Below are positions 16,278 through 41,811 of a stretch of 64,000 nucleotides of DNA, one piece after another. This DNA is from an uncultured Pseudomonadota bacterium (GTDB lineage: Bacteria > Myxococcota_A > UBA796 > GCA-2862545): NCBI GenBank assembly GCA_913061235.1, contig CAJXTB010000006.1:62001-126000 (forward strand), in the 5' to 3' direction. The notes beneath the pieces were generated by a model. The model saw only the letters and a program-made list of their open reading frames with translations, did not search any database and was not told the DNA's origin. Numbering within the stretch: position 1 is the first letter of the stretch; each line of letters begins with the position of its first letter. A program made the translations under genes and the position numbers.

Positions 16278-17606
16278 ATGCTGCTTACACTCTTGTCGCT
16301 TACTCTCTCCATCGCGTCCGCGGCAGACCTCGATGAAGACGGCTGCGAAGATGTCTACTTCGACGCCAACAGCGCCTGTGTGGCCGCAAGCGCTACGATT
16401 GGTAGTGGTGTGACGGTGGGCGCGAGTGCCATCGTTGGTGAGCTCGCGAGCGTCGGCGCTGACACCACTCTGGGAAGCAATGCGTTCGTTGGTGCACGAA
16501 CAACCGTGATTGGACGGGCAAGTCTGTCGGGCGCGCGCCCCATCGGTGCGAACACGGTGTTGGGTCGAGGCGTGTTCATTGACGCGGACCACGAGATTGG
16601 TGCGGACAACACCATTGGTCGCTCTGTGGATGTCGGGGAGCGGTTGGAGACGGAAGCGAATGTGGCAATTGGCTACGGGAGTATCTTGGGCGATGACGTC
16701 ACCCTTCGCTCGGGCGCCGTCGTCGGCAACTTGTCGGGTCTGGGTGCCAAGACCACGGTTGAGACCAACGCCGTACTCGCGCGTGGTGTGACGGTTCTCG
16801 ACTCCATCACCGCTGGGTCTATCGGCGGAATCATTGGACCGAATGTGAGCATCGGCGGCGACAATGCCATCGACGCGACCGCCCGAATCCGCAAGGATGC
16901 GACCTTGGGCGATGACGTCATTGTGCTCGGCGGTGCTCGCATTGCACGCGGTGCGACCATCGGAGATGGCGTCACTATCGGGGCGAATGCACGAATTGGT
17001 GCAGGTGCGCAGGTCACCGCAACGACCCTGGTACCGGATGGCACGGTGATTGCTCGTGGCGAGCTCTACGATGACCCGACTGCTGGCATCTTCAGTGGAG
17101 GCACGTTGCTGTCTTCTTCAGAGATGGATGAGATCAACGCCTGGGTAGGCGACCCCGACGCGAACTGGACGCTGTGTTTCCAAGGCAGCTCGGATGGCTT
17201 CACGCCCTCCGCATTCCACGCCGGGTGTGACAGCTATGCCAGCTCAATCACGGTCATCCAAGCCAATGGCAAGAAGTTCGGGGGCTACTCTTCCGTCCCA
17301 TCGAGTGGCAGCGGGTACGTCAGTGCCCCGACTTCTGCCGCTTTCCTGTTCTCTCTTACCAACAGCTTTAAGCACGCAAACATAAGCACTACACACAGCT
17401 ACTACAGGACTCCGAACTACGGTCCCACCTGGGGCGGAGGACACGACCTGCACGTGCTTCAAGGAGGCGGGGGAGCTCCCTACTGCAACACTGGGTATAG
17501 CTTCGCATGCCGGGTGGGCTCCTATGGAAGCGCAACGTGTCGCAATGACCTTTGCGGTGCCTACAACTTCACTGCGAGCGAAGTCGAAGTCTACGGCCGG
17601 GACTAG
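16278..17606 (+). CDS. Secreted left-handed beta-helix protein with TLDc-like head (copy 1)
   Basis: Signal peptide MLLTLLSLTLSIASA, a Cys-containing cap (DGCEDVYFDANSACVA), then about 240 residues of hexapeptide repeats of the [LIV]-G-x-x-x type (IGSGVTVGASAIVG), predicted to fold as a left-handed beta-helix. The last 138 residues match the TLDc pattern: SAFHAGCD, GKKFGGY, AAFLFSLTNSFKH, YGPTWGGGHDL and a final ASEVEVYG. The sugar acyltransferases that use this helix lack such a head and are cytoplasmic, so an enzyme role is unlikely. Bases 16338-17198 are identical to 18030-18890 in the next gene. Function unknown; probably a secreted or surface binding protein. Confidence 0.85.
   Translation: MLLTLLSLTLSIASAADLDEDGCEDVYFDANSACVAASATIGSGVTVGASAIVGELASVGADTTLGSNAFVGARTTVIGRASLSGARPIGANTVLGRGVFIDADHEIGADNTIGRSVDVGERLETEANVAIGYGSILGDDVTLRSGAVVGNLSGLGAKTTVETNAVLARGVTVLDSITAGSIGGIIGPNVSIGGDNAIDATARIRKDATLGDDVIVLGGARIARGATIGDGVTIGANARIGAGAQVTATTLVPDGTVIARGELYDDPTAGIFSGGTLLSSSEMDEINAWVGDPDANWTLCFQGSSDGFTPSAFHAGCDSYASSITVIQANGKKFGGYSSVPSSGSGYVSAPTSAAFLFSLTNSFKHANISTTHSYYRTPNYGPTWGGGHDLHVLQGGGGAPYCNTGYSFACRVGSYGSATCRNDLCGAYNFTASEVEVYGRD
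16338..17198 (+). repeat. 861 bp block identical to 18030-18890 (first copy)
   Basis: Reading both copies side by side shows no difference at a constant offset of 1692 bases. The block starts just after the mature N-terminus and stops at the first codon of the TLDc head (TCGGATGGC). A single mismatch at 16337 versus 18029 separates it from 14 more matching bases. Both flanks diverge immediately. Confidence 0.9.
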
Positions 17607-17969
17607 GGGACTGGCTCTCCAGTACTTGCCCCGCTGGACAGACCCTGGCGCCGGTTTCGTCCATCAACGACATCGGCCATCCCTGTAGGTAGGTTGAGTG
17701 ACCCTGCTGAGGCGGCAGGTAGTGGCGTGTACCGGTGGAGAAGCCCCAGCCTGCCTCGATTTTGTGGGTGTTGCGCCATGGCAGGCGGTGGCTCGGATCC
17801 GGTCGTTCCGGGGCACTCCGCATCTCTGTTGGAATCGAACGCCATGTTCGTTGCGTTGTTCGCCCTGTTTCCATTCTGCACTCTGCACGGATTGCGGGGC
17901 GGCGGTTTATGGTGAACGTTACGAGTGGAAACTAAGTATAATCTCCCGGAATTCACCCTGGGGATTATC
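17607..17969 (+). other. Intergenic region between the tandem beta-helix genes
   Basis: A 363-base spacer that is not repeated before the first copy. It ends with a TATAAT box (17937-17942) 28 bases before the ATG at 17970, suggesting copy 2 has its own promoter. I see no gene or terminator hairpin in the rest. Confidence 0.55.
17937..17942 (+). promoter_or_regulatory. Candidate -10 box TATAAT of beta-helix gene copy 2
   Basis: An exact TATAAT stands out in GC-rich sequence 28 bases upstream of the ATG. No good -35 is present at 16-18 bases; GTGAAC and TGAACG nearby are weak matches. This would be an extended or activator-dependent promoter if real. Confidence 0.35.
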
Positions 17970-19301
17970 ATGCTGCTGACAATTTTATCGCTCGTTGCCT
18001 CCTTCGCATCTGCTGCAGACCTCGATGATGACGGCTGCGAAGATGTCTACTTCGACGCCAACAGCGCCTGTGTGGCCGCAAGCGCTACGATTGGTAGTGG
18101 TGTGACGGTGGGCGCGAGTGCCATCGTTGGTGAGCTCGCGAGCGTCGGCGCTGACACCACTCTGGGAAGCAATGCGTTCGTTGGTGCACGAACAACCGTG
18201 ATTGGACGGGCAAGTCTGTCGGGCGCGCGCCCCATCGGTGCGAACACGGTGTTGGGTCGAGGCGTGTTCATTGACGCGGACCACGAGATTGGTGCGGACA
18301 ACACCATTGGTCGCTCTGTGGATGTCGGGGAGCGGTTGGAGACGGAAGCGAATGTGGCAATTGGCTACGGGAGTATCTTGGGCGATGACGTCACCCTTCG
18401 CTCGGGCGCCGTCGTCGGCAACTTGTCGGGTCTGGGTGCCAAGACCACGGTTGAGACCAACGCCGTACTCGCGCGTGGTGTGACGGTTCTCGACTCCATC
18501 ACCGCTGGGTCTATCGGCGGAATCATTGGACCGAATGTGAGCATCGGCGGCGACAATGCCATCGACGCGACCGCCCGAATCCGCAAGGATGCGACCTTGG
18601 GCGATGACGTCATTGTGCTCGGCGGTGCTCGCATTGCACGCGGTGCGACCATCGGAGATGGCGTCACTATCGGGGCGAATGCACGAATTGGTGCAGGTGC
18701 GCAGGTCACCGCAACGACCCTGGTACCGGATGGCACGGTGATTGCTCGTGGCGAGCTCTACGATGACCCGACTGCTGGCATCTTCAGTGGAGGCACGTTG
18801 CTGTCTTCTTCAGAGATGGATGAGATCAACGCCTGGGTAGGCGACCCCGACGCGAACTGGACGCTGTGTTTCCAAGGCAGCTCGGATGGCCTCACCGGCT
18901 CCGCATTCCACTCGGGGTGTGACAACATTGCTGGTACTGTCACGGTCGTTGTGGCCACCAATGGCAAGAAGTTTGGTGGCTACACGCCGTTGCTGTGGAA
19001 TCACGCTGGAAACTACAAGACAGAGTCGCCCCGTAGGTCGTTCCTGTTTTCGCTCACCAACAGCTTCAAGCACGTTCCTTACCGCTATACCCACGATATC
19101 TACGCGAACTCCAGCTACGGCCCGACGTGGGGTGGCGGCCATGACCTTATGGTGTACCGGGACGGTGGAGCCCCATACTGCAACTTGGGTCACAACTACC
19201 AGTGCCGCGTCGGGGGGGCGTACAGTACAGAGTGCGAACAGGACTTCTGCGGTGGGGCCAACTTTACCGTCAGTGAAGTGGAAGTCTACGGTCTGGACTA
19301 A
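17970..19301 (+). CDS. Secreted left-handed beta-helix protein with TLDc-like head (copy 2)
   Basis: Same architecture as copy 1: signal peptide MLLTILSLVASFASA, Cys cap, hexapeptide beta-helix stem identical in DNA and protein to copy 1, then a TLDc-like head (SAFHSGCD, GKKFGGYTP, RSFLFSLTNSFKH, YGPTWGGGHDL, VSEVEVYG) that is only about half identical to that of copy 1. Conserved Cys residues in the heads (APYCN, QCRVG, CEQDFCG) suggest disulphides, fitting an extracellular location. The reading frame extends upstream to a GTG at 17925, but the ATG at 17970 gives the signal peptide and follows a GGGG ribosome site as in copy 1. Confidence 0.87.
   Translation: MLLTILSLVASFASAADLDDDGCEDVYFDANSACVAASATIGSGVTVGASAIVGELASVGADTTLGSNAFVGARTTVIGRASLSGARPIGANTVLGRGVFIDADHEIGADNTIGRSVDVGERLETEANVAIGYGSILGDDVTLRSGAVVGNLSGLGAKTTVETNAVLARGVTVLDSITAGSIGGIIGPNVSIGGDNAIDATARIRKDATLGDDVIVLGGARIARGATIGDGVTIGANARIGAGAQVTATTLVPDGTVIARGELYDDPTAGIFSGGTLLSSSEMDEINAWVGDPDANWTLCFQGSSDGLTGSAFHSGCDNIAGTVTVVVATNGKKFGGYTPLLWNHAGNYKTESPRRSFLFSLTNSFKHVPYRYTHDIYANSSYGPTWGGGHDLMVYRDGGAPYCNLGHNYQCRVGGAYSTECEQDFCGGANFTVSEVEVYGLD
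18030..18890 (+). repeat. 861 bp block identical to 16338-17198 (second copy)
   Basis: Second copy of the perfectly identical stem-coding block. The divergent signal-peptide codons upstream and head codons downstream show that the identity is confined to the stem, as expected of gene conversion rather than a fresh whole-gene duplication. Confidence 0.9.
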
Positions 19302-33725: not shown

Positions 33726-33852
33726 GATGACCTCCATGTCTACACGGTACGCGCCCCAGCTCGGTTGTCACCCCTCTCAGGTGCAGCCCAGTCTCAACGG
33801 GGTCGTGTCGTGGAAAACGGAGTGGTAGGCTGCGGCATGGATGGGAGGCGAG

Positions 33853-35043
33853 ATGTGTAGAGTTGCTGGGTGGATGTTGTGTGCGCTGGCTGTGACGTCT
33901 GTGGCCTCGGCCGCGGATGTTCAGGTGTCTTGGAGTGGACGACTTCTGGACTCTGCAGGCGCGCCTTTGAATGGCCCGGTCACCGCGGAAATCCGCTTGT
34001 ATGCGGTGGATGAAGGCGGAGTACCAACCTACTCCGAGCCGTTCGTATTGGATGCCCAGGACGGCTTCGTCTCGGTGGTTCTCGGAGCTGGCGGCGGGCT
34101 CGGCAGTGGGCAGTTTCAGCAGGGGCCCGTGTACGTCGCCGTTGCGGTCGGCTCGGGCAGCAATGAGCTCACTCCCCGCGGGCTGATCACCCACACCCCT
34201 CTCGCAGCCTCTGCTGCGGGCCTACAGCTAGGCGTAGGCGGTGACTGCGACGCAGACAATGTGGGCGTCATGAACTACCAGAGCGAGACGCTCCAGCTGT
34301 GCACGGCGGATGGCTGGCGCGAGATTCAGTTGGCTAGCGTGGGAGACGGCTCCACGGCCGGCAATGCGGGGGCATCCTGTGAGGCCATTCACACCGACAA
34401 TCCGCTACTGAACAGCGGTCTGTACTGGATTGCGCCCGATGTGGGCGGGGAGTTCATCGCGTATTGCGACATGACCACCTACGGCGGTGGCTGGACCCTC
34501 GTAGTGAAGGCGAACAACGGGGACTCCGTCAACTTCTACGGCAACCACACCATCTTGAGTGGGTCGGGCACGCTCAACGCGACCACCGAGCGGGACAGCT
34601 CCCGTGGCGACTACATTGGCGAAGCGTTCTCTCGGCTGTCTGGTAGTGAGATGCTGCTGCGAGACTGTGTGGGGTCCAACGATCTGATGGGCGACTTTGG
34701 CGCCAACACCGACCTGTCGTCGCTCATCAGCACCGCCAAGGGCAATACGCTGACGGTCCCCGGACAGTGTGGCTTGGAGGCGTCTGGTCTTCAGATGAGC
34801 GGCAGTCAGCTAGGCGCAGCCACAATCACGCGACTTGGACTGGCCTGCGAAGACGACAACGACACCACCTGGGTTCCAGACGACGACGCCACGGTCATCT
34901 CCTGGCGCGACACCGACGGAGCGGATGGAACCAGCTTTGCCCACACGGCAGGAATCGCGAAGGTCGGCACCGATGGCGGCGACGACGTTCAAAATCGGGC
35001 CAATGCGGCAGTGGACGCCTGCGTCATGGTGTTCTGGCGCTAG
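33853..35043 (+). CDS. Secreted QGRL-type protein with fibrinogen-like head
   Basis: Signal peptide (MCRVAGWMLCALAVTSVASA), then an N-terminal domain like those of 7403-8767 and 35046-36497 (SGRLLDSAGAPLNGPVT; DGFVSVVLG), a short linker, and a C-terminal head of about 210 residues with the fibrinogen-like signature GLYWIAPDVGGEFIAYCDM then TTYGGGWTLVVK. The same head signature occurs in the beta-helix protein at 40252-41811. The ATG at 33853 has GGGAGG upstream. Probably an extracellular carbohydrate- or glycoprotein-binding protein. It is convergent, two bases apart, with a gene of the same family. Confidence 0.78.
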   Translation: MCRVAGWMLCALAVTSVASAADVQVSWSGRLLDSAGAPLNGPVTAEIRLYAVDEGGVPTYSEPFVLDAQDGFVSVVLGAGGGLGSGQFQQGPVYVAVAVGSGSNELTPRGLITHTPLAASAAGLQLGVGGDCDADNVGVMNYQSETLQLCTADGWREIQLASVGDGSTAGNAGASCEAIHTDNPLLNSGLYWIAPDVGGEFIAYCDMTTYGGGWTLVVKANNGDSVNFYGNHTILSGSGTLNATTERDSSRGDYIGEAFSRLSGSEMLLRDCVGSNDLMGDFGANTDLSSLISTAKGNTLTVPGQCGLEASGLQMSGSQLGAATITRLGLACEDDNDTTWVPDDDATVISWRDTDGADGTSFAHTAGIAKVGTDGGDDVQNRANAAVDACVMVFWR

Positions 35044-40251: not shown

Positions 40252-41811
40252 TCACCGAATCAAGAGCTTGGTGATGAATAATCCTTCGTGGTTCGATGGA
40301 ATATTGGGGTCGCGCGTACATCCGGAGGCTGTGGCTTGGTCGTTGTTCGACCCGCTCCATGCCAGCAGCGTTGTTGCGGGATTGATATTGTCCAAGCTGT
40401 AGTTTGAGACGCTAATCGGTGCGTCGCGGGAGTTCTGCGGTGTGCCTTGAATGCATGAGAAACCGCTGAGACAGGAGACGAGATAGCTACTCAGTCCGCC
40501 GTTGTAGCCTGGTCCTGATAGCGGAACCCAGTTGGCGCTTGAGCACCGTGACCCACCCTCATCGCCTTGCATCCGGTAGGACAAGCGGACTGAGGAGTGG
40601 TCGAGTGCGGGAGTCAGGAACAGCGCTGCGGCGTGGCTTGCGGCCTGATTGGTGTACATGAACACCCCGTCTCCGGCACCGCCTGTCAGGCCACTCACGG
40701 TCAGCGATGTACCGAGGTACCCTGAGAAGAACTGTGCTGAGAGGGTTGAGGTGTCCGGTGAAGGAGCGTGGTAGCTCTTGACCACATCCACCCATCCGCC
40801 GCCTTCCGTCGTCATGTCACAGTAGGCCTTGAATGGGGCGCTGCCGGTCGGGTCGATGCGGTACACGCCGTCTCCGGTGACCCCTGCGTACGAGTAGCCT
40901 TCGGCCGGATTGAGGTAGTCGTCACAGCTCTCAGCGTAGGTGCCATTGGCCCACTCGCCGACACCCGCGTTGTCCACAATCTGGATGTCGCATCCGGCCT
41001 GTGGCCAGGTTTCTCCGCCGCTGACGACGTCTGTGGCTCCGAGTGTTCCGCCAGCGCAGACCGTCGCGTTTGCGCGAACTACGCCGGATACTGTGGCTCC
41101 GGCCTCTACGATGGCCCCACGACCGACTCGGGCACCGGCGAGCACTTGTGCGCCCGGCAGCAGGGTGGCCTGCTTACGCACGCGAGCGGTGCTCTCAACA
41201 AGGACGTCTGCGCCGATGGTTACGTCGGGCCCAACGATTCCAAGGATGGTGGTTGCCGCGCCGGAAGAGGAAGAATCGGCAATCGTGGTGCCTCGGGCGA
41301 TGACCGCTGAGGCGCCCACTTGGGTGAAGTCTCCGAGCGCGACCAACGAGCCCACAGTCCCGTTGGCGTTGATGGTGACATCTGTGCCGAGCTGAGCGCC
41401 GTAGCCGACCGTGGCACCGTTTCCAGTTGTCAGACGAGCACCGGCGGTGACGGCGCGTGAGATGGTGGTGTCGATGCCCAAGATGTGGTCGGCACCCAGG
41501 ACTGCCTGGCGTCCGACGACGGTTCCTGCCCCCACCGTGAGCGGCTGGGTCGTGTGTTCAACCCAGCCATCCAGGGTGGCCCGTGGGGAGATGTGTACGT
41601 CATCTAGGGCGACAAAGGGACCGACGGATGCTTCCGCACCTACGAAGGTTCCGCTGACGGTGGTGACCGTGGGGTCGACGGAGGCGCTGTCAGCGATGCA
41701 GGCGCCATTGGCCGCGTACTGAATGTCATCACAGCCATCACCGTCGCCGTCTGCGGCCCATGCATTCGAGCCGCCGACCACCATCACACTCAATATCCAG
41801 GCGTACCGCAT
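40252..41811 (-). CDS. Secreted left-handed beta-helix protein with fibrinogen-like head
   Basis: A paralogue of the two tandem beta-helix proteins by its stem: signal peptide (MRYAWILSVMVVGGSNAWA), cap DGDGCDDIQYAANGACIA and about 230 residues of hexapeptide repeats (VGAGTVVGRQAVLGADHILG) in the same order. The head is not TLDc-like but fibrinogen-like: GVYRIDPTGSAPFKAYCDM then TTEGGGWVDVVK, the same signature as the QGRL protein at 33853. It shows that stems and heads have been recombined. GGGGG stands nine bases before the ATG. Function unknown; likely exported binding protein. Confidence 0.82.
   Translation of the reverse strand: MRYAWILSVMVVGGSNAWAADGDGDGCDDIQYAANGACIADSASVDPTVTTVSGTFVGAEASVGPFVALDDVHISPRATLDGWVEHTTQPLTVGAGTVVGRQAVLGADHILGIDTTISRAVTAGARLTTGNGATVGYGAQLGTDVTINANGTVGSLVALGDFTQVGASAVIARGTTIADSSSSGAATTILGIVGPDVTIGADVLVESTARVRKQATLLPGAQVLAGARVGRGAIVEAGATVSGVVRANATVCAGGTLGATDVVSGGETWPQAGCDIQIVDNAGVGEWANGTYAESCDDYLNPAEGYSYAGVTGDGVYRIDPTGSAPFKAYCDMTTEGGGWVDVVKSYHAPSPDTSTLSAQFFSGYLGTSLTVSGLTGGAGDGVFMYTNQAASHAAALFLTPALDHSSVRLSYRMQGDEGGSRCSSANWVPLSGPGYNGGLSSYLVSCLSGFSCIQGTPQNSRDAPISVSNYSLDNINPATTLLAWSGSNNDQATASGCTRDPNIPSNHEGLFITKLLIR

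Follow-up and report, generated by a model that had tools for sequence, protein, structure and literature searches.

Two tandem genes in the bacterial DNA analysed here are best explained as old paralogs within a large stem-and-head protein family specific to this genome, in which the stem was recently homogenised by gene conversion and the products likely serve in surface binding (rough probability 0.7). The genes lie within a contig stretch of 64 kb (hereafter the window). A single perfect repeat leads from there to a large uncharacterised family, which combines one stem type with about thirty head types in nearly one hundred genes. Its heads belong to types familiar mainly from animals. Should the proteins prove to bind, the family could become a test bed for recognition repertoires built by recombination, as well as for the role of TLDc domains outside eukaryotic cells.

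Both genes encode a signal peptide, a hexapeptide beta-helix stem and a TLDc head, as recognized from the open reading frames and Pfam matches. Copy 1 spans 16278..17606 on the forward strand (442 aa) and copy 2 spans 17970..19301 on the same strand (443 aa). The genes are parallel, intact and in frame, and each has its own distinct signal peptide and head. The ATG at 17970 is favoured as the start of copy 2 over the listed GTG at 17925, with a GGGGA ribosome-site-like motif in common with copy 1 and a paralog on contig C15. An earlier note on this DNA had described a perfect repeat of 861 bp at an offset of 1692. Sequence comparison recovered exactly this repeat, with 16338..17198 in copy 1 and 18030..18890 in copy 2 (both forward strand) being 100% identical (861/861 positions, 0 mismatches). 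No other long repeat occurs within the window, and the next longest exact tract shared by different genes among 94 family members is 121 bp. A 224-bp repeat on contig C33 was considered as a second conversion and rejected, as one stretch had been counted twice via two overlapping frames.

The identical tract covers codons 21-307. It begins in the leader region and reaches some 33 residues past the start of the TLDc domain, so that neither end coincides with a domain border. Such ends fit homologous recombination rather than site-specific cassette exchange. The flanks of the tract differ as the earlier note reported, but its estimate of heads that are about half identical has to be corrected. 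With gaps allowed, the heads past the tract share ~73% of DNA positions and 57% of protein positions (76/134 codons). The first 60 bp of the two copies are 77% identical, and the DNA upstream of and between the genes is diverged as well.

Synonymous divergence sets the tract apart from the remainder of the pair. The tract has a Ks of 0, with no difference in 287 codons or 229 synonymous sites (upper bound ~0.013 by the rule of three). The heads beyond the tract differ at a Ks of 1.58 and a Ka of 0.36, and the first 20 codons at a Ks of 0.63. The C15 paralog matches both stems at 74.5% DNA identity and the heads at 70-74%. Given these similar values, the two parts of the protein usually evolve at a comparable pace within the group, and the perfect stem is an exception rather than a product of slow evolution. 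In the head tree, the partner of copy 2 is the C15 paralog, although that gene lies on another contig (support 91/88). A clade uniting the heads of copies 1 and 2 is marginally rejected (p-AU 0.049) though the stems are identical. The contrast in Ks (0 vs 1.58) is independent of this marginal rejection. The pair thus carries a homogenised tract within diverged paralogs that have conflicting trees, as expected of gene conversion. Both lines of evidence bear out the initial proposal that the stem was converted. As the best reading of the sequences, copies 1 and 2 would be old paralogs in which gene conversion recently homogenised one central tract. Conversion as the mechanism and the direction of the exchange are what we infer from one genome; signals on the donor are balanced, as both copies are equally far from the C15 paralog in the stem and the flanks are mixed.

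The pair belongs to a much larger set of genes. When the genome was searched with a profile built from 13 stems, 99 sites matched at E<=1e-20, one of which has an internal stop, and two members are short. Among the 94 family open reading frames that were read, 89 have a signal-peptide-like start according to a simple in-house rule. By similarity, about 32 clusters of heads can be distinguished. Scanning 86 heads against Pfam and NCBIfam identified mostly fibrinogen-related domains, recognized by the bacterial fibrinogen-like GGGWT model in 37 heads or by Fibrinogen_C in 26, followed by TLDc (5), ALK-type glycine-rich (4), FG-GAP (3) and RCC1 (2) domains. LamG, CBM96 and other domains were found singly, and propeller-like heads also occur in the family. 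The window contains a third member at 40252..41811 on the reverse strand, in which the same kind of stem is joined to a fibrinogen-like head.

Stems and heads have followed separate histories across the family. The heads of the five TLDc genes are monophyletic (96/93), but their stems are not (p-AU 6e-6). In a tandem pair on contig C31, the stems show 87% protein identity and are sisters in the stem tree (100/99), with unrelated heads, one fibrinogen-like and one TLDc. The genes C10:153241 and C7:302936 similarly combine stems that are sisters (100/96) with heads that are unrelated. Overall, 232 stem pairs share >=62% identity, and 43 of these pairs carry unrelated heads. The conflict between stem and head trees indicates that heads have been reassorted. 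The head replacement that the earlier note offered besides conversion is thereby supported at the level of the family, most clearly by the C31 pair. Among close same-strand neighbours, stems are more alike than heads in every case, with copies 1 and 2 as the extreme.

We suggest that copies 1 and 2 began as old tandem paralogs with a signal peptide, a hexapeptide stem and a C-terminal head. A recent non-reciprocal homologous exchange between the neighbours would then have copied at least 861 bp, comprising the stem plus the beginning of the TLDc head. The promoter, the signal peptide and most of each head would have been left as before. Across the family, the stem probably acts as a common scaffold that receives different heads in the course of evolution, while recombination keeps neighbouring stems similar. 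The products are most likely located on or outside the cell, where the heads would bind surfaces, prey or polymers.

Perfect identity of the stems could alternatively be an assembly effect, if stems a few percent apart in the cell were merged into one consensus that was walked through twice. Assemblers can walk through a tandem loop of such kind. The genome consists of 72 contigs with no 16S rRNA gene found, as is usual for short-read metagenome assembly, and the assembly is probably of metagenomic origin. We consider an artefact unlikely. The two genes retain intact reading frames with distinct signal peptides and heads, and even stems a few percent apart would remain far above the flanks (~73-77%), such that recent homogenisation would still be needed. 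The pair could also have arisen through recent tandem duplication of a whole gene, after which the head and 5' end of one copy were replaced from other paralogs. Head reassortment is real in the family and the head of copy 2 is nearest to that of the C15 gene, both consistent with such a history. Yet duplication would have to be followed by two separate replacements around an untouched stem, extending to the diverged upstream and intergenic DNA. Additionally, no near-identical donor of either the head or the leader was found, the nearest TLDc head being 68% identical in protein. We rate this route as unlikely too, slightly below an artefact.

The earlier note further proposed an antigenic-variation or diversification system, i.e., a dedicated machinery that continually rewrites heads. 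The many paralogs with shared stems and divergent heads would suit such a system, as would a direct repeat able to recombine. The converted part of the pair is the stem and not the head, however, and nearly all family members, far from being silent cassettes, are intact genes that encode a signal peptide of their own. No bank of promoterless partial donors was found among the 94 open reading frames, 89 of which start in the signal-peptide-like manner described above. A diversity-generating retroelement was also rejected as a candidate, as the only reverse transcriptase found is truncated, resembles those of group II introns and is encoded on a different contig (C51). Hence, we regard a dedicated system as very improbable and retain gene conversion between old paralogs as the explanation of the pair.

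The identity of the heads was assessed by profile and by structure, two of the checks put forward in the earlier note. Pfam places TLDc domains (PF07534) at 17100..17603 in copy 1 (residues 275-440) and, together with the predicted structure, at 18792..19298 in copy 2, both on the forward strand. The two matches score 58.1 and 71.5 bits against a curated cut-off of 24.5, with E-values of 1.4e-15 and 1e-19. A full-length model from 12 sequences predicted the head poorly, therefore the head of copy 2 was folded alone with 27 relatives (28 sequences). The resulting model (pLDDT 95) has a TLDc fold close to that of human NCOA7 (7obp; Z 20.0 and rmsd 2.1 over 155 residues in VIA-align), and the next unrelated fold reaches a Z of 4. 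The assignment as a true TLDc domain thus stands, as judged from profile scores and the predicted fold. The heads share this domain with NCOA7, OXR1 and mEAK7 by both HMM and fold. Eukaryotic TLDc proteins are intracellular V-ATPase regulators, though, and the copies described here carry a signal peptide. The TLDc domain is also shared with the PEP_CTERM-anchored TLD proteins of NCBIfam (NF038124). The match to this model reaches 61.6 bits, below its 100-bit cut-off, and the protein ends at the TLDc domain with no PEP-CTERM anchor seen. A secreted bacterial beta-helix carrying a TLDc-like domain had been thought undescribed. Secreted bacterial TLDc proteins are in fact known, from NF038124 and from other stalks in the phylum, but the combination of a hexapeptide stem with TLDc was found only in this genome. 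The open literature yielded no direct precedent for bacterial TLDc or hexapeptide adhesins.

The stem has the clear sequence signature of a hexapeptide-repeat beta-helix. It matches PF00132 hexapeptide repeats (1.4e-21), contains about 40 [LIV]GXXXX hexads in register apart from one shift, and its repeats match LpxA/LpxD chains. The helix is probably left-handed, judging from the repeats, and by analogy with other hexapeptide proteins the stem is probably trimeric. A low-coverage stem model (12 sequences) matched right-handed beta-helices among candidates limited to Foldseek's own list, and a PDB search with the full-length model returned generic beta-helices only. Hexapeptide acyltransferases such as LpxA have similar PF00132 repeats, but the proteins here differ in being secreted, in carrying a C-terminal head and in having no conserved histidine in the stem. 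The best histidine column reaches 41 of 94 stems and ten stems contain none, which makes acyltransferase activity unlikely; the stems are probably not enzymes of this type. Family stems (A1) also have a strongly conserved N-terminal motif, DGCxDxYFDANxACV, which includes a cysteine pair. A set of arginines is conserved as well, several columns having this residue in 83-93 of the 94 sequences.

The closest working model for the family is the mosaic adhesive trimer (MAT) superfamily of Bdellovibrio, though we do not claim membership. In MAT proteins, which are secreted fibres encoded by many paralogs, a common stem bears C-terminal tips that are unrelated to one another, and tips have been swapped between members with similar stems, as in Bd2133/Bd1334 with 75% identical stems (PMC10769870). 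The tips include known adhesive folds, and some members are without S74 (PMC10769870). The present family likewise consists of many secreted paralogs with a shared stem and swapped, unrelated heads. It differs in having a hexapeptide-repeat helix instead of the phage-type intertwined fibre of MAT, in being several times larger, and in heads that are mainly fibrinogen-like and TLDc. The S74 peptidase domain was found in none of the 86 heads scanned. We infer that the family most likely comprises surface recognition or adhesion proteins, whose layout resembles that of MAT. Paralogous surface-protein genes of Helicobacter pylori, babA/babB and homA/homB, provide a parallel for the exchange itself, as they undergo concerted evolution in which intragenomic recombination homogenises one segment while another stays diverged (PMC3960876). 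The protein families are different, and the H. pylori case is based on strain comparison with known phase or expression effects, unlike the single genome here.

Across other genomes, heads are shared within the phylum and stalks appear lineage-specific. The stem profile had no match in 93 relatives at E<=1e-18, and no second genome of the genus is among the relatives listed. No close stem was found in 378 sampled genomes of the phylum, where seven candidates per genome were scored and one weak match (5e-16) was obtained. Searches of named genomes with the copy 2 protein and of plasmids gave no match, and elsewhere the stem profile returned only one distant match in Planctomycetota at 27% identity. 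TLDc domains occur in 17 of 379 sampled phylum genomes, including this one, and in the loci read they are carried by MopE-type metal-binding repeats (L028) or a fibre-like stalk (L029, L125). The MopE repeats of relatives might point to Myxococcota as the taxon. The GGGWT head is common, with 66 matches in this genome and 57 in G005, which represents a different genus of the family and lacks the hexapeptide stem. In 20 sampled GGGWT-head proteins, the stalk consists of MopE repeats, a fibre-like segment or cysteine-rich repeats, and 0/20 match the stem profile. The six GGGWT heads sampled in G005 (L159-L164) all have MopE-type repeats as their stalk, so that the same head type has expanded in parallel there on a different stem.

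The repertoire of nearly one hundred stem fibres might be actively maintained, a tentative extension that we hold somewhat less likely than its opposite. Conversion would keep neighbouring stems alike, and identical stems would in turn allow heads to be exchanged or joined, building a broad recognition set. Related lineages might do likewise with other stalks, such as MopE repeats or fibre-like stalks, under fibrinogen-like and TLDc heads.

The window encodes a further secreted protein of 400 aa at 33841-35043 on the forward strand, which has a fibre-like N-terminal stalk and a GGGWT fibrinogen-like head. Its stalk resembles those of distant phylum members (L029 and L165-L170). A fibrinogen-like head is hence present in the window on two different kinds of stalk, this one and the hexapeptide stem. 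At another locus, L091 (G000 C15:8326-9378), the fibrinogen-like head ends after ~60 residues, and the neighbouring gene is an intact copy whose stem is 93% identical. L091 could be a decayed or truncated copy.
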